A stretch of DNA of 64,000 nt, taken from assembly GCF_006715095.1 (NCBI RefSeq), contig NZ_VFMO01000001.1:2046001-2110000 (forward strand), in the 5' to 3' direction. Below the pieces are notes generated by a model. That model made no database searches. It was not told where the DNA came from and saw only the letters and a list, made by a program, of their open reading frames with translations. This DNA is from Yimella lutea. GTDB lineage: Bacteria > Actinomycetota > Actinomycetes > Actinomycetales > Dermatophilaceae. A program made the translations under genes and the position numbers. Below, in pieces: positions 668 through 43,828 of this stretch (the first letter of the stretch is position 1; each line of letters starts with the position of its first letter).

Positions 668-678
668 CGTCGCACCGT
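668..678 (+). promoter_or_regulatory. Start-associated motif copy 1
   Basis: Exact CGTCGCACCGT, then 6 nt to the ATG at 685. No purine-rich ribosome site lies between them. Confidence 0.85.
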
Positions 679-684
679 AGCTGT

Positions 685-855
685 ATGACCATCACGATCA
701 GTATTACGTGCGACGACTGCGGCGAGTCCGCTGAGACCTCGAGTGACATTACGGCCGGCGTCAACGAAATCGAGTCGGCGATCGACCCTGGCTGGGTTCA
801 TTCGACCGAGTACGACTACTGCCCGGACTGTGTTCCGTCGCACGAGGATGAATAA
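685..855 (+). CDS. Small putative zinc-ribbon protein, 56 aa
   Basis: A 56-residue acidic protein starting MTITISITCDDCGES. Two CxxC pairs (CDDC near residue 9, CPDC near residue 47) are spaced as in a zinc ribbon, so metal binding is likely. The start is fixed by the motif at 668-678, which puts ATG 6 nt downstream with no Shine-Dalgarno sequence. The stop TAA at 853-855 overlaps the first codons of the adenine methylase (ATG 848), so the two are probably co-translated. A similar short double-CxxC protein is encoded at 27940. Function unknown. Confidence 0.75.
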   Translation: MTITISITCDDCGESAETSSDITAGVNEIESAIDPGWVHSTEYDYCPDCVPSHEDE

Positions 856-1750
856 TCGCTGGACCAGCCCGCTGCGCTACCCCGGCGGGAAGGTCCGCAT
901 GGCTCCGTTCCTCGCCGGCGCCTTTGCGGCGCAGTGGTCCGTTATGGACATCGAGATCTTCCTCGAGCCGTTCGCCGGCGGACTCGGTGCCGGACTGAAG
1001 TTGCTAGAGCAGGATGCTGTCGACGAGCTGTGGTTCGCCGAGAAGCACCCGGCGTTGGCCGCGTTCTGGCAGGCCGTCATCGAGCAACCCGATGAGCTGA
1101 TCGCCGCGATCCGGTCGACGACACCGACGCTTGAAACGTTCTACGCCGCCCGTGAACTTGTGGGATCGCCCATCGGCGCCGACCGCCTGGATCTGGCGCG
1201 ATCCGCGCTCGTGCTCAACCGATGTTCACGCTCGGGCATCATCGCCTCGAATGTCGGACCGATCGGCGGGAAGACCCAGAAGGGCCGGTGGACGGTCGCC
1301 TCCCGATGGAACGCCGACGGACTGGTCGACCGCATCACCCGGATCGCCGCGGTGAGCGACCGGATGCGGTACCTGGGCACGGACGCCATCGGCTGCATCG
1401 CAGATCTGAATGGATCGGGTATCGAGGATGAGGTGTTCCTGTTCGTCGACCCGCCGTATGTCCGCGAAGGCAACCGGCTCTACGCCAACGGGTTCGCTGC
1501 GGACGACCATCAGGCGCTGGCTGACGCGCTCAACGACTGCCCGGCGCACTGGATGCTGACCTACGACGACGAGCCGCTGGTCGCTGACAGCCTGTACCCG
1601 GACCGCCGCATTGTCGAGTTCGAGATCCCGCACACGGCCAACCGGGCACGCATCGACACGGAGTACCTGGTGCTGTCCGACGGCGTGATGGTGCCGGAGT
1701 CGTTCGAGCCGGTGCCTGGTAGCCGGGTGCGCTGGCTGGGCGCGGCCTGA
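848..1750 (+). CDS. D12-class N6-adenine DNA methyltransferase
   Basis: 300 aa. It transfers a methyl group from SAM to adenine N6 in DNA. The N-terminus SPLRYPGGK and the FLEPFAGGLGAGL block (around residue 40) form the SAM pocket. FVDPPY (about residue 199) is the catalytic DPPY motif. Domain order and length fit Dam/D12 enzymes. The start is ATG 848, overlapping the upstream zinc-ribbon gene by 8 bases, so it is probably translated from the same motif-driven message. No restriction enzyme lies beside it, so this is an orphan methylase, most likely for protection against host restriction. A fragment of a second copy's start is at 106. Confidence 0.9.
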   Translation: MNNRWTSPLRYPGGKVRMAPFLAGAFAAQWSVMDIEIFLEPFAGGLGAGLKLLEQDAVDELWFAEKHPALAAFWQAVIEQPDELIAAIRSTTPTLETFYAARELVGSPIGADRLDLARSALVLNRCSRSGIIASNVGPIGGKTQKGRWTVASRWNADGLVDRITRIAAVSDRMRYLGTDAIGCIADLNGSGIEDEVFLFVDPPYVREGNRLYANGFAADDHQALADALNDCPAHWMLTYDDEPLVADSLYPDRRIVEFEIPHTANRARIDTEYLVLSDGVMVPESFEPVPGSRVRWLGAA

Positions 1751-1834
1751 CCGGCAGGAGCGCCGATCCGCCGCCGCACGGCAGCAATCCGTGCGACAAC
1801 CGCCGCTTCCGGAGCGATCGTGCCGGTCCACGCG

Positions 1835-1845
1835 CGTCGCACCGT
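1835..1845 (+). promoter_or_regulatory. Start-associated motif copy 2, leadered
   Basis: Exact copy, but the next start (GTG 1909) is 63 nt downstream and has its own GAAGG ribosome site. A motif used at a distance argues for a transcriptional rather than a translational role. Confidence 0.75.
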
Positions 1846-1908
1846 GTCGAGCACGAACAGTTCCATCGACGCGGTCGCTGGTCGCGTCCAAACGAAGGCA
1901 CACCTTTG

Positions 1909-2271
1909 GTGACAACTCAGACGAAGTCCCCGGCCCCTGTCAGCACCCAGACCACGCAGGTCGTCGACCTCGTCCGTGACGCCTACCTCGCCCACGAGGG
2001 CACCTCACACATCGCCTTCGCCGACTACCTCGACGGCCCGAACGTCGTCTGGACGATCGGCGAGTATCGCCTGACCGCCAGCGACGAACTCGATGAGGAC
2101 ACCGGGCGGCGGTGCGGCTACACCTGGTACATCGACGTGCGCGACGGCGACATCTGGGACGAGATTCTCGAGGGCGGGTCGGACAACGAGGACGACACCC
2201 GCGCTCTCATCACGGCCTTCGTCGCGGTGACCGAGTCCGACGACGTCAACATTGAGGTCCTTCTGCCGTGA
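1909..2271 (+). CDS. Hypothetical acidic protein, 120 aa
   Basis: Starts at GTG 1909 (VTTQTKSP), with GAAGG about 10 nt upstream. TTG 1906 in the same frame is an alternative. The product is strongly acidic, with the central block YTWYIDVRDGDIWDEILEGG and no membrane segment or signal peptide. TGA at 2269-2271 overlaps the GTG of the following frameshifted gene, so the two form a coupled pair. It is one of the few genes in this half with a conventional leader, preceded by a motif copy at 1835. I do not recognise the family. Confidence 0.7.
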   Translation: MTTQTKSPAPVSTQTTQVVDLVRDAYLAHEGTSHIAFADYLDGPNVVWTIGEYRLTASDELDEDTGRRCGYTWYIDVRDGDIWDEILEGGSDNEDDTRALITAFVAVTESDDVNIEVLLP

Positions 2272-2562
2272 CGACCTCTGTCTCGAAGGTGGCCGCCCCC
2301 GACGTTCGATGCGGCATCCGGCTGCTGGGGTGACGGAGTCTCCTACGCCTGGGTCGCGGTTGGCCCGCCGAAGTCCTCGGGTGCGGTGCACGAGTTCTCG
2401 ATTCAGCCGAAGCCGACCAAGGCATTCAGCTTCCGCCAGTTCGCGCACGCCCAAGAACTCGCGGCGCTGCTGCAGGACAGCCCCGACTGGAGGCCGGACT
2501 GGAACCCGGAGGTCGTGAACAGCCGCGGCTCAATCATCGGCTCGGCCGTTCACGCGGGGTGA
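2268..2562 (+). pseudogene. Hypothetical gene split by a +1 frameshift in a C5 run
   Basis: GTG 2268 overlaps the preceding stop (GTGA), the usual coupled start here, and gives VTTSVSKVAAP before running to a TGA at about 2334. From 2301 the protein-like frame is the next one: PTFDAASGCWGDGVSYAW continuing to IIGSAVHAG and TGA 2560-2562. Dropping one C from CCCCC at 2296-2300 joins both halves into one product of about 97 aa. Causes may be a real mutation, a sequencing error in the homopolymer, or a programmed shift. The WGDGV.YAW block resembles small actinobacterial plasmid/phage proteins of unknown role. Confidence 0.6.
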
Positions 2563-2589
2563 ACCTGCGGGCTGTGCCACCCTGGATGC

Positions 2590-2895: not shown

Positions 2896-2952
2896 CGGTG
2901 GAAACAGCGCCAATCGTTACTATCGGTGCTCAAACGGCAATGAACATGGCGT

Positions 2953-4434
2953 CTAGTCCGTGGTGTCGGTCGACTCGAAGCGCAGCAGCTCGACGTTCTC
3001 ATCGAGGCCGCCCACGATCGGCCGGTCCAACATGAAGCGGTAGCTCCCCGGGATCGGAAGGCCATCCGGAGTTCGTCCAGTGACGGCCGAGAGCATCCTC
3101 GGGTAGCAGACGTACTGGGCGATCCCCAGTGCTTCCCAGTCAGGGTGGCCTGGCGCCAGTCCCTGCTTCATCAGTTCGACTTGAGCCGCCGGCGCCACCT
3201 CGTTGCGGGTCACCAGCAGGCTGCGCCGGGATCCGCCGTCCAGGTGGTTGAGCAGCATGACGGCGTGGCCGGTGGTTCCGGATCCGGCGAAAAAATCGAC
3301 GACCAGGGCGTCCGGCTTGTGCCCGATGAACGGCCTCAGCGTGTCGGCGACCAGATAAAGCGACTTGGGGTGGTCGAAGGACCGGCCCGGCAGCATCGAG
3401 CTCAACAGCGCGGTACCGAACTTGTCGCCGGAGTGACTCAGGTGGTTCCAGACCGTCTTGGACTGCACGGGTTTCGCACCGGCCTGCTTGACGATGACGG
3501 CGCCGGCTTCGGTGCGCCCGATGACGACCAGGGTGCCCGCCTTGATCTGTGCGCGCTGACCAGCGGTCAGGTAGTCCACGGAGATCCCGCCGACGGCTTG
3601 CCGGGTGCGGAACTGGCTGCGCAGGTAACCCTGTGACCACAGTGACCGTGCTCTGTCGACACTGAGCGTCCACCGTGCCTCGACGCCGTCGGGGTTGAAC
3701 GGCCACAACGGGATCGAGCCTGCGGGCCCGGCCGGGGCATCGTCCCGGTGCATCTCGAGCGGGATGGCGTCACCGATGTCTCGGATTGCAGCGGTGTCCG
3801 GGTCGACGTGGATCGGGTAGAAAGCGGTCGGGGTTTCCGTACGCCGCCAGCCGAGCCCGCGGTGCCGAAGACCCGCCCATCGCACCGTGAGACGGTTCGC
3901 GGTGTCGACCTTGACCTGCTCCAGCAGTTCGACGTAGCCCGGCGCGGGCCGGGCGCCACCGAGCATGACGAAGAAGGCGTAGTCGGCGACCTGGGTGAAC
4001 GCGTTGCGTGAATGAACTCCGCGCCGGGAAGTGACGACGGTGACCAGCTGGATGCGGGCGTCGGGGAAGACCTCGTGTAACAGCTGGCCGAGGGTGAGCA
4101 TCTCGTCGTGCCCGATGAGGACGACCATTACCGAGTCGTCCGGGTTCAGCAGCCGGCGCGCGGCCTGCAGGCGGGGGCGCATGAAGGCGGACCAGTCGCG
4201 AAACTGATCGGCGTAACTGCGGCGCGCCACGCCGGTGTTGTACGGCGGGTCGATCCAGACGGCGTCCGTGACCCCGGCGAGCTCGGAATCCAGCAGCTCC
4301 AACACAGCCAGGTTGTCACCGGAGATGACCCGGTGCGGTTGCTTCCCCGCGACGCCGATGTGCTCTTCGAGGCGAAGGAGACGCCCGTGCTGTCCGGGGT
4401 TCGGGGAAGGGAGTTTGGGCAGCACGAGCGTCAC
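2953..4434 (-). CDS. Type III Mod-like N6-adenine DNA methyltransferase
   Basis: 493 aa. DAVWIDPPYNTGVARRSY (about residues 57-75) is the catalytic DPPY motif. VVDFFAGSGTTGHAVM (near residue 380) is the SAM-binding FxGxGTT motif. DPPY before FxGxG is the beta-class order seen in type III Mod and related phage/plasmid enzymes. GTG 4434 is chosen because a motif copy with one mismatch (4442-4452) ends 7 nt upstream. No res helicase-nuclease gene is adjacent, so it probably acts as an orphan protective methylase. Confidence 0.85.
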   Translation of the reverse strand: MTLVLPKLPSPNPGQHGRLLRLEEHIGVAGKQPHRVISGDNLAVLELLDSELAGVTDAVWIDPPYNTGVARRSYADQFRDWSAFMRPRLQAARRLLNPDDSVMVVLIGHDEMLTLGQLLHEVFPDARIQLVTVVTSRRGVHSRNAFTQVADYAFFVMLGGARPAPGYVELLEQVKVDTANRLTVRWAGLRHRGLGWRRTETPTAFYPIHVDPDTAAIRDIGDAIPLEMHRDDAPAGPAGSIPLWPFNPDGVEARWTLSVDRARSLWSQGYLRSQFRTRQAVGGISVDYLTAGQRAQIKAGTLVVIGRTEAGAVIVKQAGAKPVQSKTVWNHLSHSGDKFGTALLSSMLPGRSFDHPKSLYLVADTLRPFIGHKPDALVVDFFAGSGTTGHAVMLLNHLDGGSRRSLLVTRNEVAPAAQVELMKQGLAPGHPDWEALGIAQYVCYPRMLSAVTGRTPDGLPIPGSYRFMLDRPIVGGLDENVELLRFESTDTTD

Positions 4435-4441: not shown

Positions 4442-4452
4442 ACGGTGCGACA
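4442..4452 (-). promoter_or_regulatory. Start-associated motif, variant TGTCGCACCGT
   Basis: 10 of 11 bases match. It lies 7 nt before GTG 4434 of the Mod-like methylase. The same variant occurs at 13296. Confidence 0.75.
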
Positions 4453-5155: not shown

Positions 5156-5166
5156 CGTCGCACCGT
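5156..5166 (+). promoter_or_regulatory. Start-associated motif copy 3
   Basis: Exact copy, 6 nt before ATG 5173 of the RbpA-like gene, so the proposed RNA polymerase partner would itself be under this element. Confidence 0.85.
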
Positions 5167-5172: not shown

Positions 5173-5598
5173 ATGGCACTTCACCGAGCACGAGCCACCC
5201 GCGTTGTCGGATCCATCGTCGGCGTCACCCACAGCTTCCAGTCCGAGCGTGAGGAGATCGACGAGCAGTTCGCCATCGACACGATCGACCGGGACTTCGT
5301 CTGCCGCAAGGAGCACCGGATGACGCTGACGTTCGCAGCGGACGCGGAAGTACCGAACACCTGGGACTGCCGCACTTGCGGGTCCGTGGCGCAGATCTGC
5401 GGCGAGGGCGGAACCGAGCGTCAACTGAGTCACCGCGACCTACTGAACGCCCGGCACGAGCCGGCGTACGAAGGGTCGTGGGTGACGCAGGCGCACATCG
5501 ACGCGGTGCATGCCCGGCGCACGGACGCCGAACTTGAAGCGATGCTCGCCGAGCGCCTGGACGTCCTGCGCAACGGACCGTCGCGCATCGTCGCCTGA
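5173..5598 (+). CDS. RbpA-like RNA polymerase-binding protein
   Basis: 141 aa. RbpA proteins bind actinobacterial RNA polymerase and the principal sigma factor and stabilise the open promoter complex. Three parts match: an N-terminal region (ATRVVGSIVGVTHSF), a core with CRKEHRMTLTFAADAEVP followed by TWDCRTCG, and a C-terminal sigma-interaction helix DAELEAMLAERLDVLRNG that parallels IEELEELLKERLELIR of chromosomal RbpA. Two cysteine sites (CRKEH, CRTC) may bind zinc. The start is set by the motif 6 nt upstream. Chromosomes already carry RbpA, so a mobile-element copy is unusual and may redirect promoter choice. A rho-independent hairpin follows immediately. Confidence 0.85.
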   Translation: MALHRARATRVVGSIVGVTHSFQSEREEIDEQFAIDTIDRDFVCRKEHRMTLTFAADAEVPNTWDCRTCGSVAQICGEGGTERQLSHRDLLNARHEPAYEGSWVTQAHIDAVHARRTDAELEAMLAERLDVLRNGPSRIVA

Positions 5599-5922: not shown

Positions 5923-5933
5923 ACGGTGCGACG
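5923..5933 (-). promoter_or_regulatory. Start-associated motif copy 4, leadered
   Basis: Exact copy, 38 nt upstream of ATG 5884. The predicted leader contains a weak purine-rich stretch (ACGGACGG) before the start. Confidence 0.7.
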
Positions 5934-6881: not shown

Positions 6882-7114
6882 GTGTTCTCCTCGATGAGAT
6901 CGGCGATGGCGCGCAGCGTCGCGGGACGAAGACCGGCTTCGCAGAAAGGCGCCGGCAGGAAGCCCAGGCCGGGAAACAAGCGCCCCACCTCGTAGTTGCG
7001 CATATCGTCCGGCGCGTCCGGATGATCCACAACGACGACGGTTGTTGCCTCTGTTCCGGTGCGTGTCTCGAGGCGAACGTTGGTTCCGTTGTCTAGATGC
7101 TTGATGCGACTCAT
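6878..7114 (-). CDS. Hypothetical protein, 78 aa
   Basis: 78 aa starting MSRIKHLDNGTNVRLETRTG. Beta-rich N-terminus and a C-terminal LPAPFCEAGLRPATLRAI segment. Its ATG (7114) overlaps the stop of the preceding gene (ATGA), and its stop overlaps the next GTG (GTGA), so it is translated as part of a tightly coupled operon. No motifs identify a function. Confidence 0.7.
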   Translation of the reverse strand: MSRIKHLDNGTNVRLETRTGTEATTVVVVDHPDAPDDMRNYEVGRLFPGLGFLPAPFCEAGLRPATLRAIADLIEENT

Positions 7115-7383
7115 GGGCAGTCTCCTTCGGTTGGCTGGGCCGTTTCCGCGCGAATCCGGGCGAACGCTTGAGTGATGGTTTCGAGCGCGTCATCGAACCG
7201 ATCACAGTGGCCGGTGGGAGATCCGCTGATCACGCCTTCCGCACCAGGGCTGCCTTCACACGCGCCGATGAGGCTGACGGCAGCCATGTATGTCCGGTCG
7301 CAGTCGGCTGTCGACATCAACGGTCTCCGGCGTCGCGCGTGAGTTCGGCCTTGAGGACACCGCTGCTGTGTTGCGTTGTTCAT
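7111..7383 (-). CDS. Hypothetical protein, 90 aa
   Basis: Start chosen at ATG 7383 (MNNATQQRCPQGRTHARRRR) because an exact motif copy ends 6 nt before it. The in-frame ATG 7317 (MSTADCDRTY) would give 68 aa. The C-terminal half (RFDDALETITQAFARIRAET) is helical. Overlaps the next gene by 4 bp. Unknown function. Confidence 0.65.
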   Translation of the reverse strand: MNNATQQRCPQGRTHARRRRPLMSTADCDRTYMAAVSLIGACEGSPGAEGVISGSPTGHCDRFDDALETITQAFARIRAETAQPTEGDCP

Positions 7384-7389: not shown

Positions 7390-7400
7390 ACGGTGCGACG
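7390..7400 (-). promoter_or_regulatory. Start-associated motif copy 5
   Basis: Exact copy, 6 nt before ATG 7383. It decides between this start and the internal ATG 7317. Confidence 0.8.
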
Positions 7401-7405: not shown

Positions 7406-7645
7406 TCACCGCGATGCTCTGCACTGCTCATCGGAACCAGTGAGGTTGTCGTCGAGAGGCACCCAAGAGCCGCGGACCCGAATCGTGGGGTCGGCGCTCG
7501 TCGACCAGAGTCGGCGGACCACGACATCCCGGGGTTCAACGGGCTCCGGATAGATCGACGACACGGAAAGGAGCAAGCCGGTCTCGTCGTAGTGCTCGAA
7601 CAGGGCCATCCGCTCGGTGCTGGTGGGCTCCCAGGAAATCTTCAT
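7406..7645 (-). CDS. Hypothetical protein, 79 aa
   Basis: MKISWEPTSTERMALFEHYD, then a beta-strand-rich centre (LLLSVSSIYPEPVEPRDVVV) and RVRGSWVPLDDNL. Single motif-driven leaderless start at 7645. It ends a few bases before the next motif copy (7390), so each gene of this pair has its own element even though they lie head to tail. Family unknown. Confidence 0.65.
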   Translation of the reverse strand: MKISWEPTSTERMALFEHYDETGLLLSVSSIYPEPVEPRDVVVRRLWSTSADPTIRVRGSWVPLDDNLTGSDEQCRASR

Positions 7646-7651: not shown

Positions 7652-7662
7652 ACGGTGCGACG
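7652..7662 (-). promoter_or_regulatory. Start-associated motif copy 6
   Basis: Exact copy. The 6-nt spacer ATCGGC before ATG 7645 is identical to the spacer at 8252-8257. Confidence 0.85.
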
Positions 7663-7777: not shown

Positions 7778-8251
7778 TTAGTCGCCCGTGCCGTTGAGAA
7801 TCTTCAGGATGCGCGAGTATCCACTGCAGCAGGGGCACTTGCGATCGGCTTCGGCCGCGTGCCGGATCGCCGATTCGCGTGCCCGGACCGCCGCAATCGA
7901 ATCAGCGAGCACAGCCGGAGCGATCCACGCTGACCATTGGTCGCAGAACCGTCCGTCGACACTGGTGACCTCGCTTCGGACGTGGGTGGCGCACAGGAGG
8001 TTGCCGGGGTCGGACTGATCCTCCACCCACTGGCAGAGCTTCGCCTCGATCTGGTCGAGACCGGTCAGCGAACGGTCCTCCCCTCGAGTCTGTGACTTCG
8101 CCGCGAGGCGTCGGGAAGTCTCGACCTCACCGAGGAGCGCCAAGAGCTCGCGCGGACCAATCGGCACGGAGACGTTGTCGGATCGGGAGGCTTCTGCTTC
8201 TGCGGTCAATGCGTCGAGATCGGCGAGGCGCAGGCGGTGGTTTTTGGACAT
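7778..8251 (-). CDS. Hypothetical protein with terminal cysteines, 157 aa
   Basis: 157 aa. An N-terminal helical half (LRLADLDALTAEAEASRSDN, RELLALLGEVETSRRLAAKS) leads to a tryptophan-rich centre (CQWVEDQ, QWSAWIAPAVLADSIAAVRA) and ends in ADRKCPCCSGYSRILKIL, where C-P-C-C could bind a metal. The start is ATG 8251, 6 nt after a motif copy. Similar helical small proteins are common in actinobacteriophage early regions, but this one cannot be assigned. Confidence 0.65.
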   Translation of the reverse strand: MSKNHRLRLADLDALTAEAEASRSDNVSVPIGPRELLALLGEVETSRRLAAKSQTRGEDRSLTGLDQIEAKLCQWVEDQSDPGNLLCATHVRSEVTSVDGRFCDQWSAWIAPAVLADSIAAVRARESAIRHAAEADRKCPCCSGYSRILKILNGTGD

Positions 8252-8257: not shown

Positions 8258-8268
8258 ACGGTGCGACG
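8258..8268 (-). promoter_or_regulatory. Start-associated motif copy 7
   Basis: Exact copy, 6 nt before ATG 8251. Confidence 0.85.
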
Positions 8269-8581: not shown

Positions 8582-8989
8582 TCAGTAAGACTTCCCGTGC
8601 AACTGCTCGCGGCTGGCGTTGTACGCCATCTTCTGACGGACAACGGAGTCGATATCGACGTCGAGAGAGTTCAGCATGTCGAGGCACCGAATGAGGCAGT
8701 CGGCGATCTCCACAGCGACACCTTCGGGCTTCATCGTCTCGTGCCATTGCTCGTCGCCGTAGAGCGCACGACCGTCGGCCATCACGGTGACCTCGTCGAC
8801 GGATCGGTCGTCGCCAGCCTCAGTGCTGGCGTACCAGACCGCCGGCCGTCCGGCGCGGTGTTCTTCGAGTGCTTCGGCCAGTTCGGAAACGGCGAGCATG
8901 AGCATCTCGCCCATGTTGCGGTCGCTGTCCCAGAAGCCCTTGTCGGCGGCGTTCGCGTGAATCTTCTCGGCGTACTCGTTGAGGTTCAT
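8582..8989 (-). CDS. MazG-like nucleotide pyrophosphohydrolase
   Basis: 135 aa. MazG-type enzymes hydrolyse nucleoside triphosphates to monophosphates. EMLMLAVSELAEALEEHRAG (about residues 28-47) gives the first metal-binding ExxE-type helix. GVAVEIADCLIRCLDMLNSL (about residues 88-110) gives the second, with the EIADCLIR acid pair. Length suits a single-domain MazG-like protein, which phages and plasmids often carry, perhaps to manage (p)ppGpp or dNTP pools. Start ATG 8989, 6 nt after a motif copy that overlaps the tail of the preceding gene. Confidence 0.85.
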   Translation of the reverse strand: MNLNEYAEKIHANAADKGFWDSDRNMGEMLMLAVSELAEALEEHRAGRPAVWYASTEAGDDRSVDEVTVMADGRALYGDEQWHETMKPEGVAVEIADCLIRCLDMLNSLDVDIDSVVRQKMAYNASREQLHGKSY

Positions 8990-8993: not shown

Positions 8994-9395
8994 CTACGGT
9001 GCGACGGCCGTATCGCCGCGTTCACGTGCGGACAGCACCGCCTGGCGGTAGGCAACCCCAGAGTCCAGGTCGATGTTGTGCGCGGCCGCAATCCGGTGCA
9101 GCGCAATCGCCGCGTCACAAAGCCCAGCAAGGTCGTCCTTACCCTGGAACTGGTGTTTCGCGATCCGGCCGACGGCATCCATGAGATCGAGAACGACGTC
9201 TCGAACATCGTCCGGCGGATCGACCTCGAGCCTACGGTCGTGATGACCAGTCAGGTGCCGCGCGAGTTCCCCTTCGGCTTCTGCGCGACTGTGCCGGACC
9301 CCGGTCGTCCAGTACGACGTGAGAGTGCACGTACACAGTGCCCGGTGTCCGAACTCGTCGGAATCGAAGCGGGGCGGATACACCGGCTCAGGCAC
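8994..9395 (-). CDS. Hypothetical protein, 133 aa
   Basis: GTG 9395 is chosen because GGAAGAAGAAGG lies about 7 nt upstream. GTG 9440 in frame would overlap the upstream gene by 53 bp. N-terminal PEPVYPPRFDSDEF is followed by ALCTCTLTSYW and histidine-rich ELARHLTGHHDRRLEV, then a helical C-terminus (IALHRIAAAHNIDLDSG). The end of the gene is shared with the motif for the MazG-like gene. No family recognised. Confidence 0.55.
   Translation of the reverse strand: MPEPVYPPRFDSDEFGHRALCTCTLTSYWTTGVRHSRAEAEGELARHLTGHHDRRLEVDPPDDVRDVVLDLMDAVGRIAKHQFQGKDDLAGLCDAAIALHRIAAAHNIDLDSGVAYRQAVLSARERGDTAVAP
8996..9006 (-). promoter_or_regulatory. Start-associated motif copy 8
   Basis: Exact copy, 6 nt before ATG 8989. 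It overlaps the last codons of the upstream gene, whose stop TAG lies within the motif and its spacer (A-V-A-P-stop). Confidence 0.85.
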
Positions 9396-10336: not shown

Positions 10337-10500
10337 GTAGCGACGGTGCGACGGCAGTCGAACGACAGCGGTGAGTCGTCGCAACTATGCGCCGCGGTGA
10401 GGTGTGGACCGCCCGTGTTGTGGTTCGGGCAGACGACCGGGATCAGGGCTGGTTTCGTCGTTTGGACAGCGACCCAGCGATGGACGGGGTCGCCGGCCAA
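10333..10500 (-). CDS. Possible small protein, 55 aa, TTG start
   Basis: A reverse-strand frame ending in TGA that overlaps the next ATG (ATGA at 10336-10333). It reads LAGDPVHRWVAVQTTKPALI, then PVVCPNHNTGGPHLTAAHSC and ends RRTVAT, where RRT is encoded by the motif copy itself. CPNH..H..H.C could bind a metal. There is no ATG or GTG upstream, only TTG 10500, so the start is weak. Confidence 0.35.
   Translation of the reverse strand: MAGDPVHRWVAVQTTKPALIPVVCPNHNTGGPHLTAAHSCDDSPLSFDCRRTVAT
10343..10353 (-). promoter_or_regulatory. Start-associated motif copy 9
   Basis: Exact copy, 6 nt before ATG 10336. Confidence 0.85.
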
Positions 10501-13295: not shown

Positions 13296-13306
13296 ACGGT
13301 GCGACA
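13296..13306 (-). promoter_or_regulatory. Start-associated motif, variant TGTCGCACCGT, leadered
   Basis: 10 of 11 bases. The codon 6 nt downstream is ATA instead of ATG, and the likely start is at 13253 or 13244. The A expected at +1 is kept. Confidence 0.6.
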
Positions 13307-13987: not shown

Positions 13988-13998
13988 ACGGTGCGACG
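13988..13998 (-). promoter_or_regulatory. Start-associated motif copy 10
   Basis: Exact copy, 6 nt before ATG 13981. A second, imperfect copy lies 24 bp further upstream. Confidence 0.85.
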
Positions 13999-14011: not shown

Positions 14012-14022
14012 ACGGTGCGACC
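14012..14022 (-). promoter_or_regulatory. Start-associated motif, variant GGTCGCACCGT, tandem
   Basis: 10 of 11 bases, same orientation as the copy at 13988. No ATG follows at the usual spacing (ATC instead), so it may be a decayed start or a second promoter. Confidence 0.55.
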
Positions 14023-20389: not shown

Positions 20390-20400
20390 ACGGTGCGACG
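20390..20400 (-). promoter_or_regulatory. Start-associated motif copy 11, leadered
   Basis: Exact copy. The downstream gene has a strong ribosome site (GGAAGGAG), so here the motif cannot be substituting for one. Confidence 0.75.
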
Positions 20401-20445: not shown

Positions 20446-20456
20446 CGTCGCACCGT
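20446..20456 (+). promoter_or_regulatory. Start-associated motif copy 12
   Basis: Exact copy, 6 nt before ATG 20463. Divergent from copy 11, 46 bp away. Confidence 0.85.
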
Positions 20457-21360: not shown

Positions 21361-21371
21361 CGTCGCACCGT
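21361..21371 (+). promoter_or_regulatory. Start-associated motif copy 13
   Basis: Exact copy, 6 nt before ATG 21378, starting 14 bp after the preceding stop codon. Confidence 0.85.
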
Positions 21372-22986: not shown

Positions 22987-23134
22987 CCGGAGCTGCTTCA
23001 ACCTCGGCGGTGTCGACCGGCTCGGCATCATCGGTGACACCCACGCCAACCCGCGATGGTTGAATCCTCCCCACGGCTTGAGCCGGAGGCCTCCCACCCC
23101 AGGACCCCCGGTCGTGAGGATCGTCGCACCGTGA
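22985..23134 (+). pseudogene. N-terminal stub of a metallophosphoesterase
   Basis: This frame reads FNLGGVDRLGIIGDTHANPR, then WLNPPHGLSRRPPTPGPP and stops at TGA 23132-23134. GIIGDTHANPRW is the first metal-binding block (GDxH) of calcineurin-like phosphoesterases. The rest of the enzyme is missing and no ATG or GTG starts the frame. The stop overlaps the last base of a motif copy. Likely a decayed remnant. Confidence 0.45.
23122..23132 (+). promoter_or_regulatory. Start-associated motif copy 14
   Basis: Exact copy with a 7-nt spacer to ATG 23140. Confidence 0.8.
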
Positions 23135-27596: not shown

Positions 27597-27607
27597 ACGG
27601 TGCGACG
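27597..27607 (-). promoter_or_regulatory. Start-associated motif copy 15
   Basis: Exact copy, 6 nt before GTG 27590 of tmk. Divergent from copy 16 with 16 bp between the cores. Confidence 0.85.
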
Positions 27608-27623: not shown

Positions 27624-27634
27624 CGTCGCACCGT
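27624..27634 (+). promoter_or_regulatory. Start-associated motif copy 16
   Basis: Exact copy, 6 nt before ATG 27641. Confidence 0.85.
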
Positions 27635-28137: not shown

Positions 28138-28148
28138 CGTCGCACCGT
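28138..28148 (+). promoter_or_regulatory. Start-associated motif copy 17
   Basis: Exact copy, 7-nt spacer to ATG 28156. Confidence 0.8.
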
Positions 28149-28782: not shown

Positions 28783-28786
28783 GGGT

Positions 28787-33866: not shown

Positions 33867-34133
33867 GCGGGGCGGGTGCGCAAGACGGCGGGGCCGATCC
33901 TGGACGCGCTGCTCCACGGCGCAGATCGGCGGCGGTGGCCTGCTGCGAACATCGGTGTGACGACGGGCTCGGTGTCCGGGGTCGAGGTCGTCGACGGGGA
34001 CCGCAGGGCGGCCGGGTCGGGTTTCATGGCGTTCGAGCGTGCCCGTCGGGCCCTGCGCCCGAAGCCGACCGGTGCGCGGTCGTTCTCGAGCGGTCCTCAT
34101 GCGGGACGTCGCGCGCGTCGCACCGTCTCGCCT
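33867..34133 (+). pseudogene. Fragment of a bifunctional primase-polymerase
   Basis: RKTAGPILDALLHGADRRRW, then PAANIGVTTGSVSGVEVVDG, DRRAAGSGFMAFERARRALR. The W-P.ANIG..TG..SG..V.D.D block is the N-terminal prim-pol signature, including a D-x-D pair. Only about 85 codons survive, without start or helicase half. The frame runs without a stop into the NYN gene at 34134, so a fusion protein could in theory be read. Confidence 0.55.
34116..34126 (+). promoter_or_regulatory. Start-associated motif copy 18
   Basis: Exact copy inside the prim-pol fragment, with a 7-nt spacer to ATG 34134. Confidence 0.8.
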
Positions 34134-34809: not shown

Positions 34810-34820
34810 CGTCGCACCGT
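34810..34820 (+). promoter_or_regulatory. Start-associated motif copy 19
   Basis: Exact copy, 6 nt before ATG 34827. Confidence 0.85.
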
Positions 34821-34826: not shown

Positions 34827-34967
34827 ATGAAGAGATCATCGACTCGCACTGCCCCCGTCCCTGCGTTCGCCGTTGCTATCACCGCTTTGCTCGACGGCAC
34901 CCTGCCATCCGCGGTGCTGTGCGGGCCGTGTGATGAGAAGGCACTGCGCGAACGAGCCAACGCCTGA
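34827..34967 (+). CDS. Small protein, 46 aa
   Basis: MKRSSTRTAPVPAFAVAITA, then LLDGTLPSAVLCGPCDEKAL and RERANA. A short hydrophobic stretch and one CGPC pair. The CGPC motif resembles a redox active site, but the size is far below a thioredoxin. Motif-driven leaderless start. The next gene starts 1 bp after its stop. Confidence 0.6.
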   Translation: MKRSSTRTAPVPAFAVAITALLDGTLPSAVLCGPCDEKALRERANA

Positions 34968-35356: not shown

Positions 35357-35578
35357 TCAAGCTGCGATGCGCGCGGCGAGACCGACTGCGGCGAACACCA
35401 GTGCTCCGGTGCCGGAGGCCACGAGGCCGCCGAGCATGAACCGGGTGCCAGGGATCTCTCGTCCCTTGGTGGCCGACAGGGTGAGCGAAGAGACGACGCC
35501 GAGCGAGCACACGGCCCATCCGGCGGCGAGGACGGTGGCGATCGCGAGGCAGTAGGACGTGTATGCAGCGCTGGTCAT
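35357..35578 (-). CDS. Two-helix membrane protein, 73 aa
   Basis: MTSAAYTSYCLAIATVLAAG, then WAVCSLGVVSSLTLSATKGR and MLGGLVASGTGALVFAAVGL. Two membrane segments with a short basic loop. Leaderless start from a motif copy. It is convergent with the membrane gene ending at 35343, 13 bp away. Confidence 0.65.
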   Translation of the reverse strand: MTSAAYTSYCLAIATVLAAGWAVCSLGVVSSLTLSATKGREIPGTRFMLGGLVASGTGALVFAAVGLAARIAA

Positions 35579-35584: not shown

Positions 35585-35595
35585 ACGGTGCGACG
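35585..35595 (-). promoter_or_regulatory. Start-associated motif copy 20
   Basis: Exact copy, 6 nt before ATG 35578. The bases upstream are identical to those at copy 23 (37685) for about 16 bp beyond the core. Confidence 0.85.
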
Positions 35596-36023: not shown

Positions 36024-36493
36024 CCGCACTCCGCCGTCGGTGCGACCGCAGACATGGTCCACGCACGCTGCTTGTCGAGGTAGTCCACGGCGGCGCCGAA
36101 GTCCGGCACGCAGGTCGTCGCGGTGCGGGCAAAGATGTTCTCCGGCTCACCGACGGTGACGACCGGGATGCCGCGACCGAGGGCGTAACCGACCTCGACG
36201 TGACGGCCACCGGAGCCGGGGTCGCCGCCGTCCAGCACTGCAGGCGTCAAATGGATGACGTACTGCGCGCGGTCGACGTCCGCCAGGTCGGCCAGGGAGA
36301 ACTGCTGCACCTGCTCATCGGACAGACCTGGGGCGGCGCCCGTGACCGCGGGGGTGATCTCGCAGTCCTCGTCCAACCAGGAAGCGGTACTGACGTACGC
36401 GCCGCCGGCTTCGAGTTCGGTGCGCAGTTCCCGGATGAGGTCGCGGCAACGGTACGGACCCGCGAGGTAGACCCGAGTGGGGACGTACGTCAT
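36020..36493 (-). CDS. Nucleoside 2-deoxyribosyltransferase-like protein
   Basis: 157 aa. [20 protein letters not shown] at the N-terminus and [20 protein letters not shown] near residue 105 match the NDT fold, where the E of HVEVGYA is the usual catalytic Glu. The centre ([18 protein letters not shown]) carries the substrate-side Asp. It may exchange bases on deoxynucleosides or bind nucleotide derivatives as a sensor. Start and stop both overlap neighbours by 4 bp (ATGA), placing it between a 72-aa gene and the broken DUF2493 gene. Confidence 0.75.
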
Positions 36494-36708
36494 CGCGCAG
36501 CCGCCGTCGGTGCAGTCATGGCGAATCCGACGAGCTGGGCGAACCGCTCGTTGTACTGCCGGGTGAGGTCGTCACGGTCGGCGCGAGCGGCTTGAACGTC
36601 ACGCTCGCCGTCCCACATGAGGACCTTGGGGCTGGTGCGGAAATCGAAGTCGTCGTCGAGTTCGACGACGGTCTTGCAGCGGAAGAAAACGTTGAGTGAA
36701 GAAGGCAT
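36490..36708 (-). CDS. Hypothetical protein, 72 aa
   Basis: MPSSLNVFFRCKTVVELDDD, then FDFRTSPKVLMWDGERDVQA, ARADRDDLTRQYNERFAQLV. Beta-strand start and a coiled helical end. Leaderless start from a motif copy, first gene of a three-gene coupled operon with the NDT-like and DUF2493 genes. Confidence 0.65.
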   Translation of the reverse strand: MPSSLNVFFRCKTVVELDDDFDFRTSPKVLMWDGERDVQAARADRDDLTRQYNERFAQLVGFAMTAPTAAAR

Positions 36709-36714: not shown

Positions 36715-36725
36715 ACGGTGCGACG
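36715..36725 (-). promoter_or_regulatory. Start-associated motif copy 21
   Basis: Exact copy. Its spacer CCAGTC before ATG 36708 is identical to that of copy 20. Confidence 0.85.
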
Positions 36726-37576: not shown

Positions 37577-37587
37577 ACGGTGCGACG
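37577..37587 (-). promoter_or_regulatory. Start-associated motif copy 22, leadered
   Basis: Exact copy, 47 nt upstream of ATG 37529, whose own ribosome site is near-perfect. Confidence 0.75.
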
Positions 37588-37684: not shown

Positions 37685-37695
37685 ACGGTGCGACG
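37685..37695 (-). promoter_or_regulatory. Start-associated motif copy 23, unusual spacing
   Basis: Exact copy, but an ATG (37684) follows with no spacer and opens only an 18-codon frame, MNTSRQERHPATRRPSPGG. If transcription starts 7 nt downstream, the product may be a short noncoding RNA or a leader ending near 37625. Confidence 0.6.
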
Positions 37696-39839: not shown

Positions 39840-39840
39840 A

Positions 39841-40203: not shown

Positions 40204-40225
40204 GATGGGTCGCCTCCTTCGGCGG

Positions 40226-40693: not shown

Positions 40694-40790
40694 AATCGTC
40701 AGCTACTGCGTGTCGAATCCACCGGGAGGTGGGTCGATGTGCAGATCACCGGCCACCTCCCTTCTATGTCGTGGGGCCGGACAGTTGAGA

Positions 40791-40860
40791 GACGCTGGTC
40801 GGAATCGAACCGACGTCACCGGTATTGCAGACCGGTCCCTGACCACTCGGGCACAGCGCC
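40791..40860 (-). tRNA. tRNA-Cys (GCA)
   Basis: A 70-nt cloverleaf on the reverse strand. The 7-bp acceptor GGCGCTG/CAGCGTC contains one G-U pair. The anticodon loop is CTGCAAT, with GCA between the ACCGGT/ACCGGT-type stem. The T-loop is TTCGATT. No CCA is encoded. Confidence 0.85.
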
Positions 40861-40897
40861 ATGAACGGTGAAGCAGACTTCGCCTGAGGGCTTGGTC

Positions 40898-41143
40898 TCA
40901 GCTCACGAGTTTCAGGTAGTCGGCCACCAGCCGGGCGTACTCGCGCTGGTAACGGCGGGATAGTTCGTCCTTGGCCCGGCGTTCAGCGTTGCGCCGGATG
41001 CGAGCTTCAGAGTTGCGGGTGGCCTTCCATTCGCGCATGTATGCGTTCCAAGCCAATCGGCAGGGGTCGCAGACGGGTTCTGCGAGGCGGCGGTGCCGCT
41101 GGCTCCCGGCGCGGGTGCCGCATCGAATCTCGGTTTCAGCCAT
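40898..41143 (-). CDS. Small basic protein with cysteine pairs, 81 aa
   Basis: MAETEIRCGTRAGSQRHRRL, then AEPVCDPCRLAWNAYMREWK, a very basic helix (ARIRRNAERRAKDELSRRYQ) and REYARLVADYLKLVS. Cys8 with CDPC could bind zinc. This C-G-T..G..RH...E..C..CR.A pattern is common in small actinobacteriophage and plasmid proteins. Leaderless start from a motif copy. It precedes the tRNA-Cys gene on the same strand. Confidence 0.7.
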   Translation of the reverse strand: MAETEIRCGTRAGSQRHRRLAEPVCDPCRLAWNAYMREWKATRNSEARIRRNAERRAKDELSRRYQREYARLVADYLKLVS

Positions 41144-41149
41144 GCTGCA

Positions 41150-41160
41150 ACGGTGCGACG
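41150..41160 (-). promoter_or_regulatory. Start-associated motif copy 24
   Basis: Exact copy, 6 nt before ATG 41143. Confidence 0.85.
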
Positions 41161-41168
41161 GGGAGCCG

Positions 41169-42470
41169 CTACGGCTTCTCGCCGTTCTCGGTCAGCCCGT
41201 GGTCGGCATTCCAGCGCTCGTAGGAGTCTCGGTCGCCAGGCCAGTTGCGCCAGTTGTAGTCGCTGTCCCTGCGCTCGGCGGCCGTCAGGCGCTCGACCCG
41301 CTCCGACTGACGCTGAGCCAGATCGCTCAACGAAGCGATGGTGTTGGCCGCCTCGAACCACGCCATGTCGTGCCGGTACTGCGCATCGTCGAACGCTGCG
41401 GTCCGCGATCGGTCTGCGTACTTCGCCAACGACTCCCGCTCCTTGCGGATGACGTCGGCTGCGGCCGGCGGTAGCGACGCCATCGCCAACGTGGCGTCGA
41501 GCTCTGCCTTCTTCCGCTCGTGCTCGGCGAGATCCGCTGCGGCCTGGTCGAGCTCCTTCTTGGCAATCGAGAACCTCGGCACCCTGATCGGCTGCCGGGT
41601 ACGCAGCGTCTGGCCGCGGGAACCGATCTTCGGTCTGGTGCGCACCGTGGGCCGGACAGCCGGAGGGGTTGCGGTCGCGAACGCCTGCTGCTCGGCCTGG
41701 AGCTGCTCCAGGACGGAGTCGCGTTCCTTCGTGGCGCGCTGCAGATCGGAGGGCTGGCTGAAACCGGGCCACCACCTTTGCTTCGGGTCTCGATCGGTGC
41801 GCCGCGCCAGAAAGTGCCACGGCCGAAGCGCCCCGGTCTGGACCAGCTCGCGGGCTCGCTTCAGTTCGTCTAGTTGCAGGCGCTGCGCGGTGTCTGTCGG
41901 GTAGTCACCGTCCGGCGGCAGCGTGGGCAACTCGAAGAAGTTGTTCGCGTATGTGTAGTCGCCGTCGTCATCCTCGTCGTCGACGTAGCCCGGATAGCCG
42001 GGGATCTGGTAAGTCTGCACGCAACCGGTGCAGTCGCAGGCCGGACCCGGTTCGGTGTCCTCGCCGTAGTGCTCCCGGTTGCCGGAACCGTTACGGGTGT
42101 GTACGACCAGGAAGGGCCCCGTCTCCTCCTCGGTCCAGTCATCCTGACGTAACTCGACGCTGATGCCGCGCATGCGCCCGAAGTTGCGGCCCGCCAGACC
42201 GGCGTGCTCCATGAGACGTTCGGCGGTGACCCGTTCAGCCGGCGCGTACTCACCGTGCTCCGATTCGAAGTCATCCAACGGCTTGAAGTGCTCCGCGAAC
42301 ACCTCAGCAAACGGTCGTCCGTTCACGTCAGGGACACCGTCGGTGTTGTCGGCGTGCCAACCGACCGGAGTCGGTGCTTGCTCGAGAACCGCGGACGACT
42401 CGGAGGACGACGAGGGGGCGAATCGCCCATCGCCGGAGCGCGGGTGATCGGATTCTTGAAACGTGGTCAT
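41169..42470 (-). CDS. Large hypothetical protein, 433 aa
   Basis: MTTFQESDHPRSGDGRFAPS, a serine-rich linker, then RPFAEVFAEHFKPLDDFESE, ISVELRQDDWTEEETGPFLV, ACDCTGCVQTYQIPGYPGYV and an acidic YVDDEDDDGDYTYANNFFEL. The C-terminal half is a long charged coiled coil (IAKKELDQAAADLAEHERKK). C-D-C-T-G-C suggests a metal site. The DGRFA start resembles the DUF7007-like protein at 37708. Leaderless start from a motif copy. Function unknown. Confidence 0.65.
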   Translation of the reverse strand: MTTFQESDHPRSGDGRFAPSSSSESSAVLEQAPTPVGWHADNTDGVPDVNGRPFAEVFAEHFKPLDDFESEHGEYAPAERVTAERLMEHAGLAGRNFGRMRGISVELRQDDWTEEETGPFLVVHTRNGSGNREHYGEDTEPGPACDCTGCVQTYQIPGYPGYVDDEDDDGDYTYANNFFELPTLPPDGDYPTDTAQRLQLDELKRARELVQTGALRPWHFLARRTDRDPKQRWWPGFSQPSDLQRATKERDSVLEQLQAEQQAFATATPPAVRPTVRTRPKIGSRGQTLRTRQPIRVPRFSIAKKELDQAAADLAEHERKKAELDATLAMASLPPAAADVIRKERESLAKYADRSRTAAFDDAQYRHDMAWFEAANTIASLSDLAQRQSERVERLTAAERRDSDYNWRNWPGDRDSYERWNADHGLTENGEKP

Positions 42471-42694
42471 GCAGACACGGTGCGACGGCCTGAGCGGACC
42501 GCTCGCACTTCGTCGAGCAGCCGGCGCGTGTCGAGGGACGGGTCAAAGGTGCATCGGTCTGGTAACCCGTGCGTCATCCCGTGGGACTCGATCTGGTGCT
42601 GCGCCAGCACCCGTGCCTCAGCCTCAATCACCTCGACCAGGGCGGCGGTGACGGCAGCACGGGCGTTGCTGCGATACCAGCCATGCCTGCACAT
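42467..42694 (-). CDS. Hypothetical protein, about 75 aa, start uncertain
   Basis: ATG 42694 gives MCRHGWYRSNARAAVTAALV, then EVIEAEARVLAQHQIESHGM, CTFDPSLDTRRLLDEVRAVR. The same frame is open and protein-like further upstream (ICADEIKSGHAVAEWDD) but starts only after a TGA at 42766-42764, where a methylase-like start has been joined out of frame. The C-terminus overlaps the next motif copy (RRTVSA) and gene by 4 bp. C..H..Y near the start may be a metal site. Confidence 0.5.
   Translation of the reverse strand: MCRHGWYRSNARAAVTAALVEVIEAEARVLAQHQIESHGMTHGLPDRCTFDPSLDTRRLLDEVRAVRSGRRTVSA
42477..42487 (-). promoter_or_regulatory. Start-associated motif copy 25
   Basis: Exact copy, 6 nt before ATG 42470, inside the tail of the upstream gene. 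Confidence 0.85.
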
Positions 42695-42737
42695 CGGGTC
42701 ATCCCACTCCGCGACTGCGTGCCCGGACTTGATTTCG

Positions 42738-42767
42738 TCAGCGCATATCGCCTTCGTTGATTGTCAT
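42738..42767 (-). pseudogene. Orphan start: duplicated 5' end of the C5 methylase
   Basis: ATG 42767 reads MTINEGDMR then TGA. The motif, spacer GCAGGT and first codons closely match the intact start at 43811 (MAIDEEVMAR). It looks like a copied promoter-plus-start joined out of frame to the gene at 42694. Confidence 0.55.
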
Positions 42768-42773
42768 ACCTGC

Positions 42774-42784
42774 ACGGTGCGACG
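42774..42784 (-). promoter_or_regulatory. Start-associated motif copy 26
   Basis: Exact copy, 6 nt before ATG 42767. Spacer identical to copy 27. Confidence 0.8.
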
Positions 42785-42803
42785 GTCCCCGTCGTCGTTC
42801 CGT

Positions 42804-43811
42804 CTACGCCAAACTCCCCGCGCGCGAGACGTTCGAGCCGTCAAGGGATTCGACAACACGCTCGCCAATCCAGCGAGCCACCTGCACGGGGACTGCGTTC
42901 CCGATCTGGCGCACCTGCTCGGCCTGAGTGCCGGTGATCTCGTAACAGTCGGGGAACCCCTGTGCCCTTGCCAGCTCGCGCGGGGTGAATCGGCGGTACC
43001 AATCGCCGGTCCCGGTGCGTTCGGCGAGGTAGTGGTGCACTCCGCCCGCGGTGACGGTCGCGACCGGGTGCAGGTCAGCTCGGCGAGGCTGGGCGTTTCG
43101 GCGCATCATCACGAGATGCGGGGTGTCGCGTTCGGTGATCTGGTGGACCTGCGGCGTGATGTACAGGTGCCGGTCCATTCGCTTCATGGGCAGGTCTTCC
43201 AGGATGGTGCTCGCGGTGACGGCCGGCATCGTGGGGAGGTCCAACGTGAGCGGCCGCTGCGTGAAGATGATGAAGATCCGCTTTCGATGCTGTGGCGTGC
43301 CGAGGGCCGCGGCGTTGATGATGTACTCCTGGTGGTGATAGCCGAGGGCGTTCATCATCGCCAGCCATTGCGGGTAGAGCACCCATCCCTGAAATTCAGG
43401 GACGTTCTCGACGATCACCGCCTTGTACTGGTGGACCTCGGATGCCGCAATAACGGCGAACGCGGTTGCCCGGTCGATCGCGCCCGCCGAAGCACGAGCC
43501 TTCTCAACGTCGGCGGGGAGCGGCCGGCGTCCACCGGCGCGTGCGTGCCACACGCAGGATGGTGACGCCCAAGCGATGGTGGTGCTCGGGAACGTGGTCC
43601 AGTCCGTTTCGGATAGGTCGGCGATCCGGTGCTCGGTTTTGGGGTGGTTGCGCTGGTGAGTAGCCACTGCGCGCACGCTGTGGTTGGCGGCGATCTTGAC
43701 GGTGATGCCTGCCTGTCGTAGCCCTTCGGATGAGCCACCTGCGCCGGCGAACAGGTCGGTAGCGGTGTGGTGGACGAAGGACCGCGCCATCACTTCTTCG
43801 TCGATTGCCAT
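42804..43811 (-). CDS. C5-cytosine DNA methyltransferase
   Basis: 335 aa. Methylates cytosine at C5. Motif I: TATDLFAGAGGSSEGLRQAG (about residue 17). Motif IV with the catalytic Cys: TIAWASPSCVWHARAGG, the SPxC..H form common in phage and plasmid enzymes rather than PPC. Motif VI: KAVIVENVPEFQGW. Motif VIII: GTPQHRKRIFIIF. Motifs IX-X: FTPRELARAQGFPDCYEI and VRQIGNAVPVQVARW. The target site cannot be inferred. Start ATG 43811 is set by motif copy 27. It is flanked by a tRNA cluster and has no restriction partner. Confidence 0.9.
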   Translation of the reverse strand: MAIDEEVMARSFVHHTATDLFAGAGGSSEGLRQAGITVKIAANHSVRAVATHQRNHPKTEHRIADLSETDWTTFPSTTIAWASPSCVWHARAGGRRPLPADVEKARASAGAIDRATAFAVIAASEVHQYKAVIVENVPEFQGWVLYPQWLAMMNALGYHHQEYIINAAALGTPQHRKRIFIIFTQRPLTLDLPTMPAVTASTILEDLPMKRMDRHLYITPQVHQITERDTPHLVMMRRNAQPRRADLHPVATVTAGGVHHYLAERTGTGDWYRRFTPRELARAQGFPDCYEITGTQAEQVRQIGNAVPVQVARWIGERVVESLDGSNVSRAGSLA

Positions 43812-43817
43812 ACCTGC

Positions 43818-43828
43818 ACGGTGCGACG
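43818..43828 (-). promoter_or_regulatory. Start-associated motif copy 27
   Basis: Exact copy, 6 nt before ATG 43811 and 3 bp from the tRNA-Gln gene. It is the last copy in the window; none is found beyond. Confidence 0.85.

Follow-up and report, generated by a model that had tools for sequence, protein, structure and literature searches.

A strict 11-bp start-associated motif on an integrated actinobacterial element: a probable core promoter for a diverged, element-encoded sigma-70-like protein

What reads the 11-bp sequence CGTCGCACCGT, which stands just before one gene start after another in a 64,000-nucleotide stretch of the Yimella lutea genome (NZ_VFMO01000001.1, positions 2046001-2110000; hereafter the window)? 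The window lies within element A, which is integrated and spans about 317 kb, and a second element of about 151 kb, element B, carries the same motif in another genus of the same family. We argue here that CGTCGCACCGT is probably the core promoter of an element-private transcription programme, read via a diverged, element-encoded protein of the sigma-70 family. The motif, its position, its strictness, the conservation of its regulon and a sigma-like protein with orthologues were all computed from the DNA.

The motif and its distance from gene starts

The genome (3,533,116 bases in one contig) holds 53+60 = 113 exact copies, whereas the reversed pattern occurs 2+2 times; the 11-mer followed after 6-7 nt by ATG occurs 73 times, against 0 for its reversed counterpart. 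None of these 73 lies outside element A and its 2685-kb satellite, where five further copies occur at 2684-2689 kb and about 2 kb is a 97% duplicate of element A. Within element A, 98 copies lie between genome positions 1901718 and 2217343, whereas letter-permuted 11-mers average 0.6 occurrences, with a maximum of 6, in the 360 kb around it. A preliminary description of this DNA, made from the letters of the window alone, had placed the repeat far above chance, and these counts agree.

The window contains 27 exact copies, on both strands and between window positions 668 and 43828, as that description reported, together with six one-mismatch copies (3878, 4442, 4482, 13296, 14012 and 51514) rather than the three it counted; three of the six (4442, 13296 and 14012) stand in a setting that resembles that of exact copies. 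A start codon follows at +6 in 19 exact sites, and at +7 in three exact sites and the one-mismatch site 4442, which reproduces the earlier tally. Exact sites without a start at 6-7 nt are 1835, 5923, 20390, 37577 and 37685; the preliminary description had named the first four along with 13296, a one-mismatch copy, and had not listed 37685 with them. Its statement that every copy points toward a gene is mostly right, with two weak cases among the 27: 42774, which leads into a 9-aa frame, and 37685, which points at its tandem partner.

Across elements A and B, an ATG or GTG follows at 6 nt (94) or 7 nt (24) in 118 of 151 copies. ATG alone, counted at offsets 0-39, occurs 82 times at 6, 22 times at 7 and at most four times at any other offset, and only 10 one-mismatch copies have a start (nine in the A region and one in the B region). 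Such spacing would suit an mRNA signal for the initiation of translation, namely a ribosome-binding element other than Shine-Dalgarno (SD), as proposed for the start-associated sequences (SAS) of cluster K mycobacteriophages; an SD-like 4-mer occupies the spacer at only 10 of the 118 start-adjacent sites. However, the other 33 copies lack a start at that distance; several of them lead SD-led genes that begin tens of nucleotides away, and this layout is kept in orthologues with different leader lengths. The pairs are the SSB gene (A 2165394/B 1756298), A 2006083/B 1849053 and A 2066390/B 1836631; in the last, which joins window site 20390 to a plus-strand site of element B, the orthology of the downstream genes was judged by eye. 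The two copies of a fourth pair, A 2007121 and B 1847955, fall within the open reading frame (ORF) of each element's PD-(D/E)XK nuclease, before an in-frame internal start, and are possibly a conserved internal promoter for a C-terminal product. A further copy, which a translation signal would not explain, precedes tRNA-Asp by 58 nt, with a GC-rich hairpin between them that could be a terminator.

Two other features are hallmarks of promoters rather than of translation signals. Among 31 distinct leadered sites, a pyrimidine-purine (YR) step that would place +1 at nt 7 after the motif is present in 17, against 1-10 (mean 7) for six neighbouring steps; and the 29 neighbouring motif pairs within 400 bp are divergent (17) or tandem (12), never convergent. 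The base at -1 is a pyrimidine in 52/55 and 32/39 of the 6-nt sites and in 17/17 and 7/7 of the 7-nt sites, compared with 13/21 at SD-led host starts, a small sample. At the window's thymidylate kinase gene, which starts exactly at +6, the kinase domain begins at residue 8, leaving little room for an earlier start. Because the motif is kept at a distance from SD-led genes, nt 7 favours a YR step and convergent pairs are absent, we read it as a core promoter and consider a translation signal very improbable. The same three lines of evidence favour the suggestion in the preliminary description of a promoter whose transcript begins about 7 nt after the motif, leaderless or leadered, and they support, at the level of sequence, a core promoter at -17 to -7 that would make leaderless mRNA when ATG or GTG follows.

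If RNA begins at the start codon, the motif has the footprint of an extended -10 promoter, rather than of the -10 hexamer alone to which its last bases had been compared earlier; the A and T singled out in that comparison do agree (A-11 and T-7). The extended -10 consensus is TGnTATAAT-like. Against it CGTCGCACCGT agrees only at T-15, A-11 and T-7, and is thus not of that type. These three are nevertheless key bases of the consensus, and would fit a core promoter read by host sigma factors together with an element-encoded activator over the -10, such as a shared ArsR-like protein. Helix-turn-helix (HTH) proteins shared by the elements do exist, and in the accessible part of the report on the bifidobacterial plasmid pMP7017 its authors interpret a shared 34-bp motif that covers the -10 as a site for a transcription factor (PMC10832533). 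Against such an activator, the 11-mer is non-palindromic and fixed in orientation, keeps its distance from the presumed start constant to within 1 nt and has almost no variants, and its ATG-led genomic sites are confined to element A and the satellite. No -35 box was found upstream of the motif in A or B, where weak upstream preferences differ, so that specificity appears to lie in the 11-mer; and in B two divergent copies abut with nothing between them, so that no conserved upstream box would fit there. We regard reading by host sigma factors plus an activator as rather unlikely.

Two integrative elements and a conserved regulon

Elements A and B each combine an integrase with tRNA-derived end repeats. 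In A, a 27-bp direct repeat of the tRNA-Pro(GGG) 3' end lies at 1900902 and 2217593, and the integrase gene, recognized by Pfam, at 2215726-2217003; in B, 45-bp repeats of the tRNA-Ala 3' end lie at 1746128 and 1896765, and the integrase is homologous to that of A. Element A also encodes two FtsK/SpoIIIE proteins and one M23+NlpC/P60 protein and has megaplasmid homologues, its FtsK-like and primase-like proteins being related to those of 370- to 610-kb plasmids of Arthrobacter, Pseudarthrobacter, Paenarthrobacter and Curtobacterium. No relaxase turned up in element A, no search having been aimed at relaxases. Judged by its sequence, element A is an integrated element, probably of conjugation type.

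From window position 43829 to the end of the window at 64000, and onward to genome position 2137919, about 48 kb of element A has no exact copy of the motif; this part is perhaps a later insertion. An array of 23 tRNA genes lies on the element at 2137786-2142780. A 1548-aa protein (1941810-1946456) holds an intein-like stretch of the replicative helicase/gp41-1 intein type, and three large proteins of unknown function, compared with solved structures, yielded one intein but otherwise no informative match.

Among 186 genomes of the family, motif-plus-ATG sites are enriched only in the window's own genome (73; G000) and in G017 (35), the host of element B, with 0-2 in the others; none of the other genomes in a sample of 396 from the order exceeded 2. 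Element B has 53 motif copies. By blastn, A and B share a single 174-bp stretch of DNA, and they are joined by 61 reciprocal-best protein pairs at 27-68% identity, in rearranged gene order. The motif state is concordant in 54 of the 61 (21 with the motif in both, 33 in neither, 5 in A only, 2 in B only; Fisher p 1.1e-9). These pairs remain from 102 reciprocal-best matches inside both elements after ORFs overlapped over half their length by a better one had been taken out, pairs below 60 bits being uncounted. Since the longest ORFs overrun true starts, the motif was sought in a stretch that began 250 nt upstream of each ORF and ended 450 nt within it. A cruder first count, with greedy ORF choice, some shadow frames and three insertion sequence (IS) rows for one B gene, gave 22, 34, 3 and 3 of 62.

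This concordance bears on the suggestion that the repeats were spread by a mobile sequence or arose by chance in GC-rich DNA. Three near-identical IS-like copies (genome 1929961, 2013440 and 2195573; about 99% over 1.4 kb) do carry the 11-mer, each before a 421-aa protein that is TnpB-like by eye. With transposase rows left out, however, 58 pairs remain, of which 20 have the motif in both, 31 in neither, 5 in A only and 2 in B only (p 5e-9), and the regulon agrees despite the rearranged gene order. Taken with the rarity of permuted motifs, this refutes mobile repeats or chance as the explanation, to which we allow virtually no probability.

Among the genes led by the motif in both elements are those for an NAD-dependent DNA ligase, a RecG-like helicase, SSB, a primase-like protein, a PD-(D/E)XK nuclease, an ATPase and a VWA-type protein. 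No motif adjoins the starts of the two FtsK-type genes or of the M23/NlpC gene; the FtsK-type gene in the window may share the transcript of the motif-led gene that precedes it. Elements A and B also have in common weak-HTH or ArsR-like proteins and an IrrE/M78-type peptidase. The shared weak-HTH protein and the peptidase would make a candidate repressor-antirepressor pair if CGTCGCACCGT were the operator for one element-encoded repressor silencing the integrated element, and its element-wide spread would suit such a role. Operators, however, are often palindromic and differ from site to site in where they lie and which way they point, whereas the motif is fixed in both respects, and the leaderless genes would then have no recognizable promoter of their own. 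We therefore hold an operator to be improbable.

A cryptic sigma-like protein and its relatives

About 37 kb to the left of the window, element A carries a gene (genome 2008261-2009310) for a cryptic sigma-like protein, and B encodes an orthologue; it is the only sigma-like product found in the two elements, not all shared proteins having been examined. Its match to the NCBIfam sigma70 superfamily model TIGR02937 (E 3.2e-5, residues 46-279) reaches 23.6 bits, below the cut-off of 42.9; the B copy matches Sigma70_r3 at E 0.004, and hhalign against three sigma-70 sequences gave P 1.6e-6 and Prob 90. In a Foldseek search with the predicted model, the 50 listed rows were all sigma factors by title and chain (best E 9e-5) and the predicted region 4 aligned at 1.9-2.6 Å, while a control model of similar quality found no match below E 1.3. 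The model, of modest confidence, has the fold of sigma regions 2, 3 and 4, and the protein bears a private RKDPARSG-type signature. From the predicted structure we take it to be a putative, highly diverged member of the sigma-70 family that spans regions 2 to 4. Neither copy of the gene has the motif upstream, which is compatible with expression from a host-type promoter.

Two other candidates in element A were set aside: the product of 2193586-2194920, sigma-looking by eye, gave no significant fold match and no profile match, and that of 1940514-1941701 matched a single ECF sigma at Prob 31 across no more than 21 columns. The single-subunit RNA polymerase model PF00940 had no match in either genome; as 14 control genomes were likewise silent, this null is no evidence of absence. 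Directly upstream of the cryptic sigma gene (2009292-2009732) is a small protein that looks like an actinobacterial IHF by eye and has no profile match.

Profile searches for the cryptic sigma in plasmid parts returned one ORF each in Arthrobacter zg-Y1110 (E 1.5e-30), Pseudarthrobacter chlorophenolicus pACHL01 (2.5e-30) and Curtobacterium D40 (8.8e-23). In zg-Y1110 and pACHL01 the ORF adjoins the primase gene, and in D40 it lies a few genes away; it is annotated as an HTH protein in pACHL01 and as hypothetical in D40. Within the family, five of 186 genomes gave a match: G000, G017, G124 (E 4e-23), G105 (2.5e-18) and, marginally, G173 (5e-6). We also made an unbiased scan of 8-mers at a fixed distance d before ATG, scored as the log10 of a Poisson term without correction, and all seven carriers scanned (A, B, the three plasmids, G105 and G124) show a start-associated motif. 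In A and B this is CGTCGCACCGT; in the two Arthrobacter-type plasmids it is CGCACACA at d=8 (47/90 and 62/168 copies), preceded in pACHL01 and zg-Y1110 by a CGGnGA-type box about 15 nt before it; in the Curtobacterium plasmid, CGCGCATA/CGCGCACA at d=8 (21/102 and 17/54); in G105, TGCGCTCA at d=8 (14/22); and in G124, GCCACACC at d=8 (13/29). The best 8-mers score at least 16 in the carriers; Dietzia W09 reaches 7.7, and the flanks of the elements and the host chromosome no more than 5.5. Two sets of 8-mers were dropped, those of Corynebacterium as repeats and those of pMP7017 as a CRISPR-like array. By eye, many start-associated genes share an N-terminal coding signature, RQPxGIPxGG in pACHL01 and zg-Y1110 and HPRNxDGxF in A and B (for example L201:15407-16729 and window 42470), and at pACHL01 378959 a sigma-70 domain appears to lie behind a helicase-like region in one 920-aa frame.

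The search of other DNA for the 11-mer and its spacer, which the preliminary description had recommended, thus led to element B and to no enrichment among the viral matches listed: at least 120 viral stretches hold the 11-mer with ATG, one each among the 80 listed, which we take as background. With tblastn the cryptic sigma had no match in the plasmid collection (A copy) or the phage collection (B copy). Viral scans gave no match for the cryptic sigma or RecG and only three loci, at 23% identity, for the ATPase, and wider scans of genome contigs for relatives gave none apart from one distant RecG.

Several results weigh against the reading we prefer. Pfam Sigma70_r2 has 10 matches above cut-off in G000 and 12 in G017, none of them in A or B. 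The hhalign result falls to Prob 71 when the plasmid orthologues are added and to Prob 2 with a two-sequence profile; the plasmid orthologues themselves match sigma models weakly (NCBIfam E 0.015-0.03), and P0004 and P0005, which stand farther off in the alignment, show no such match. Start-associated motifs occur in Glaciihabitans W07, scanned whole (CGCGCATG at d=8, 11/27, score 13), where the search for a cryptic sigma gave nothing better than E 0.03, and in Rhodococcus W05 (ACCATATC at d=9, 6/6, score 9.7), where no cryptic sigma was found. Furthermore, pACHL01 and zg-Y1110 also encode canonical sigmas, that of zg-Y1110 being preceded by the plasmid's own motif, so that either type of sigma could read the motif of those plasmids. 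As to the repeat itself, when two mismatches are tolerated the window has 84 copies against 67.4 +/- 7.5 in shuffles, 2 of 100 shuffles reaching 84; with the excess nearly gone, the motif is strict and its signal resides in the exact 11-mer.

With these points counted, we still find it probable that CGTCGCACCGT is a core promoter read via the cryptic sigma. RNA would begin at nt 7 after the motif, which would then occupy -17 to -7; mRNA would be leaderless where the A or G of a start codon stands at nt 7, and elsewhere a leader would follow, in several cases with an SD site. The cryptic sigma would direct the host RNA polymerase core to the motif, and expression of its own motif-free gene from a host-type promoter would turn on the genes for replication, repair and modification at the same time. 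We infer the pairing of sigma and motif from their co-occurrence and by elimination.

A broader scheme, which we put forward tentatively and with chances just short of even, is that of a superfamily of actinobacterial megaplasmids and integrated elements with an unrecognized sigma family in the replication block, each lineage having its own one-block leaderless promoter (CGTCGCACCGT; CCGCACACAT; CCGCGCATAG; CTGCGCTCA; CGCCACACC) as co-evolving, orthogonal sigma-promoter pairs. If these proposals are true, large actinobacterial mobile elements run private transcription through a sigma too diverged for the Pfam region-2 model, from promoters compact and strict enough to be read by eye; the joint switching-on of element replication and repair genes would be explained, and orthogonal leaderless expression parts for actinobacteria would become available. 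The function of start-associated repeats, moreover, becomes directly testable.

Sites along the window and comparison with known systems

At the left of the window, copy 668..678 (+) has ATG at +6 of gene 685-855, and 5156..5166 (+) likewise leads gene 5173-5598. Copy 1835..1845 (+) is leadered, its start lying 60-63 nt downstream with AAGG; the leader of 20390 has GGAAGGAG and that of 37577 has GAGG, and the preliminary description had named ribosome sites at these three distant-start genes. The one-mismatch copy TGTCGCACCGT at 4442..4452 (-) has GTG at +7 of an N6/N4 DNA methylase gene (2953-4434), and 5923..5933 (-) has no adjoining start, an ATG following 39 nt downstream with no clear SD. 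ATG stands at +6 of the minus-strand copies 7390..7400 (gene 7111-7383), 7652..7662 (7406-7645), 8258..8268 (7778-8251), 8996..9006 (8582-8989), 10343..10353 (9887-10336) and 13988..13998 (13625-13981), the last with the tandem one-mismatch copy GGTCGCACCGT upstream of it at 14012..14022 (-). The one-mismatch copy 13296..13306 (-) adjoins no start, possible starts lying farther downstream. Several copies of CGTTTCACCGT / CCTCTCACCGT within 220 bp at 15521-15739, with strong GC and AT skew, form a local repeat distinct from the motif.

In the middle of the window, the leadered copy 20390..20400 (-), with its ATG 32 nt downstream, is divergent from 20446..20456 (+; ATG at +6, gene 20463-20873). 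There follow 21361..21371 (+; ATG at +6, gene 21378-21641) and 23122..23132 (+; ATG at +7, 54-aa frame 23140-23304). The thymidylate kinase gene (26895-27590) has GTG at +6 of 27597..27607 (-), and 16 bp from this copy its divergent partner 27624..27634 (+) has ATG at +6 of gene 27641-27937. Copy 28138..28148 (+) has ATG at +7 of gene 28156-28782, which has a homologue in element B and is followed by the FtsK-type gene 28565-32824, and 34116..34126 (+) has ATG at +7 of an NYN-domain gene (34134-34787) whose B homologue is motif-led too.

To the right, ATG is at +6 of 34810..34820 (+; 46-aa frame 34827-34967), 35585..35595 (-; gene 35357-35578), 36715..36725 (-; 36490-36708), 41150..41160 (-; 40898-41143) and 42477..42487 (-; 433-aa gene 41169-42470). 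Copy 37577..37587 (-) is leadered, with ATG 47 nt downstream, and 37685..37695 (-) lies in tandem upstream of it across a 97-bp gap. The last copy, 43818..43828 (-), is at a tRNA-Gln 3' end and has ATG at +6 of a C5-cytosine methylase gene (42804-43811); its spacer is identical to that of 42774..42784 (-), whose ATG at +6 opens the 9-aa frame and which is possibly a remnant. Four tRNA genes lie in the window at 40789-44086.

What is new here is the element, its conserved regulon and a cryptic sigma family with lineage-specific start-associated promoters. Literature on leaderless megaplasmid promoters and on sigmas encoded by plasmids or integrative and conjugative elements, in a coverage that mostly lacked subscription papers, showed no description of the motif or the sigma family among the entries listed, and the 11-mer string itself occurred in two papers, on animal biology to judge by title. 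In the available parts of the reports on cluster K mycobacteriophages, the SAS are 13-bp sequences, GGGATAGGAGCCC, with an SD core and a proposed role in translation, extended forms having 17-bp inverted repeats (PMC3203893, PMC12699233). As far as those parts go, the SAS are like the present motif in being short, non-palindromic and genome-wide, in lying a few nucleotides before starts that are mostly ATG, in having no exact copies in the M. smegmatis host and in being tied to non-structural genes. The motif here differs in having no SD, in standing also at a distance from SD-led starts, in occurring on both strands and in being accompanied by an element-encoded sigma-like protein. In line with the likeness in idea and difference in sequence noted in the preliminary description, CGTCGCACCGT lacks AGGAG and does not match GGGATAGGAGCCC within two mismatches, yet sits a few nucleotides before starts.

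The nearest precedent found for a plasmid-wide promoter regulon is pMP7017 of Bifidobacterium breve, whose 34-bp motif, according to the accessible part of its report, is plasmid-specific, lies over the -10 of 19 promoters and is absent from bifidobacterial chromosomes; unlike CGTCGCACCGT, it includes TATACT as its -10 and has ribosome sites after it (PMC10832533). This plasmid carries a distant homologue of the FtsK-like protein of element A; it has 0 copies of the 11-mer, and the cryptic sigma was not found in the 80 of its 190 kb that were searched. Among sigma-70 proteins of the ECF/FliA-like type (TIGR02937, Sigma70_r2/r3/r4), the cryptic protein is alike in its weak whole-length profile match and predicted fold, and differs in lacking a Sigma70_r2 match, in its RKDPARSG-type signature and in a motif with no -35 seen. 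Late promoters of phage T4 consist of a single strict, short block without a -35, present in many copies and read by the diverged sigma gp55. They differ in being AT-rich and not leaderless, but share with the motif described here the strict block, the missing -35, the many copies and, if our reading is right, a diverged sigma encoded by the element itself.

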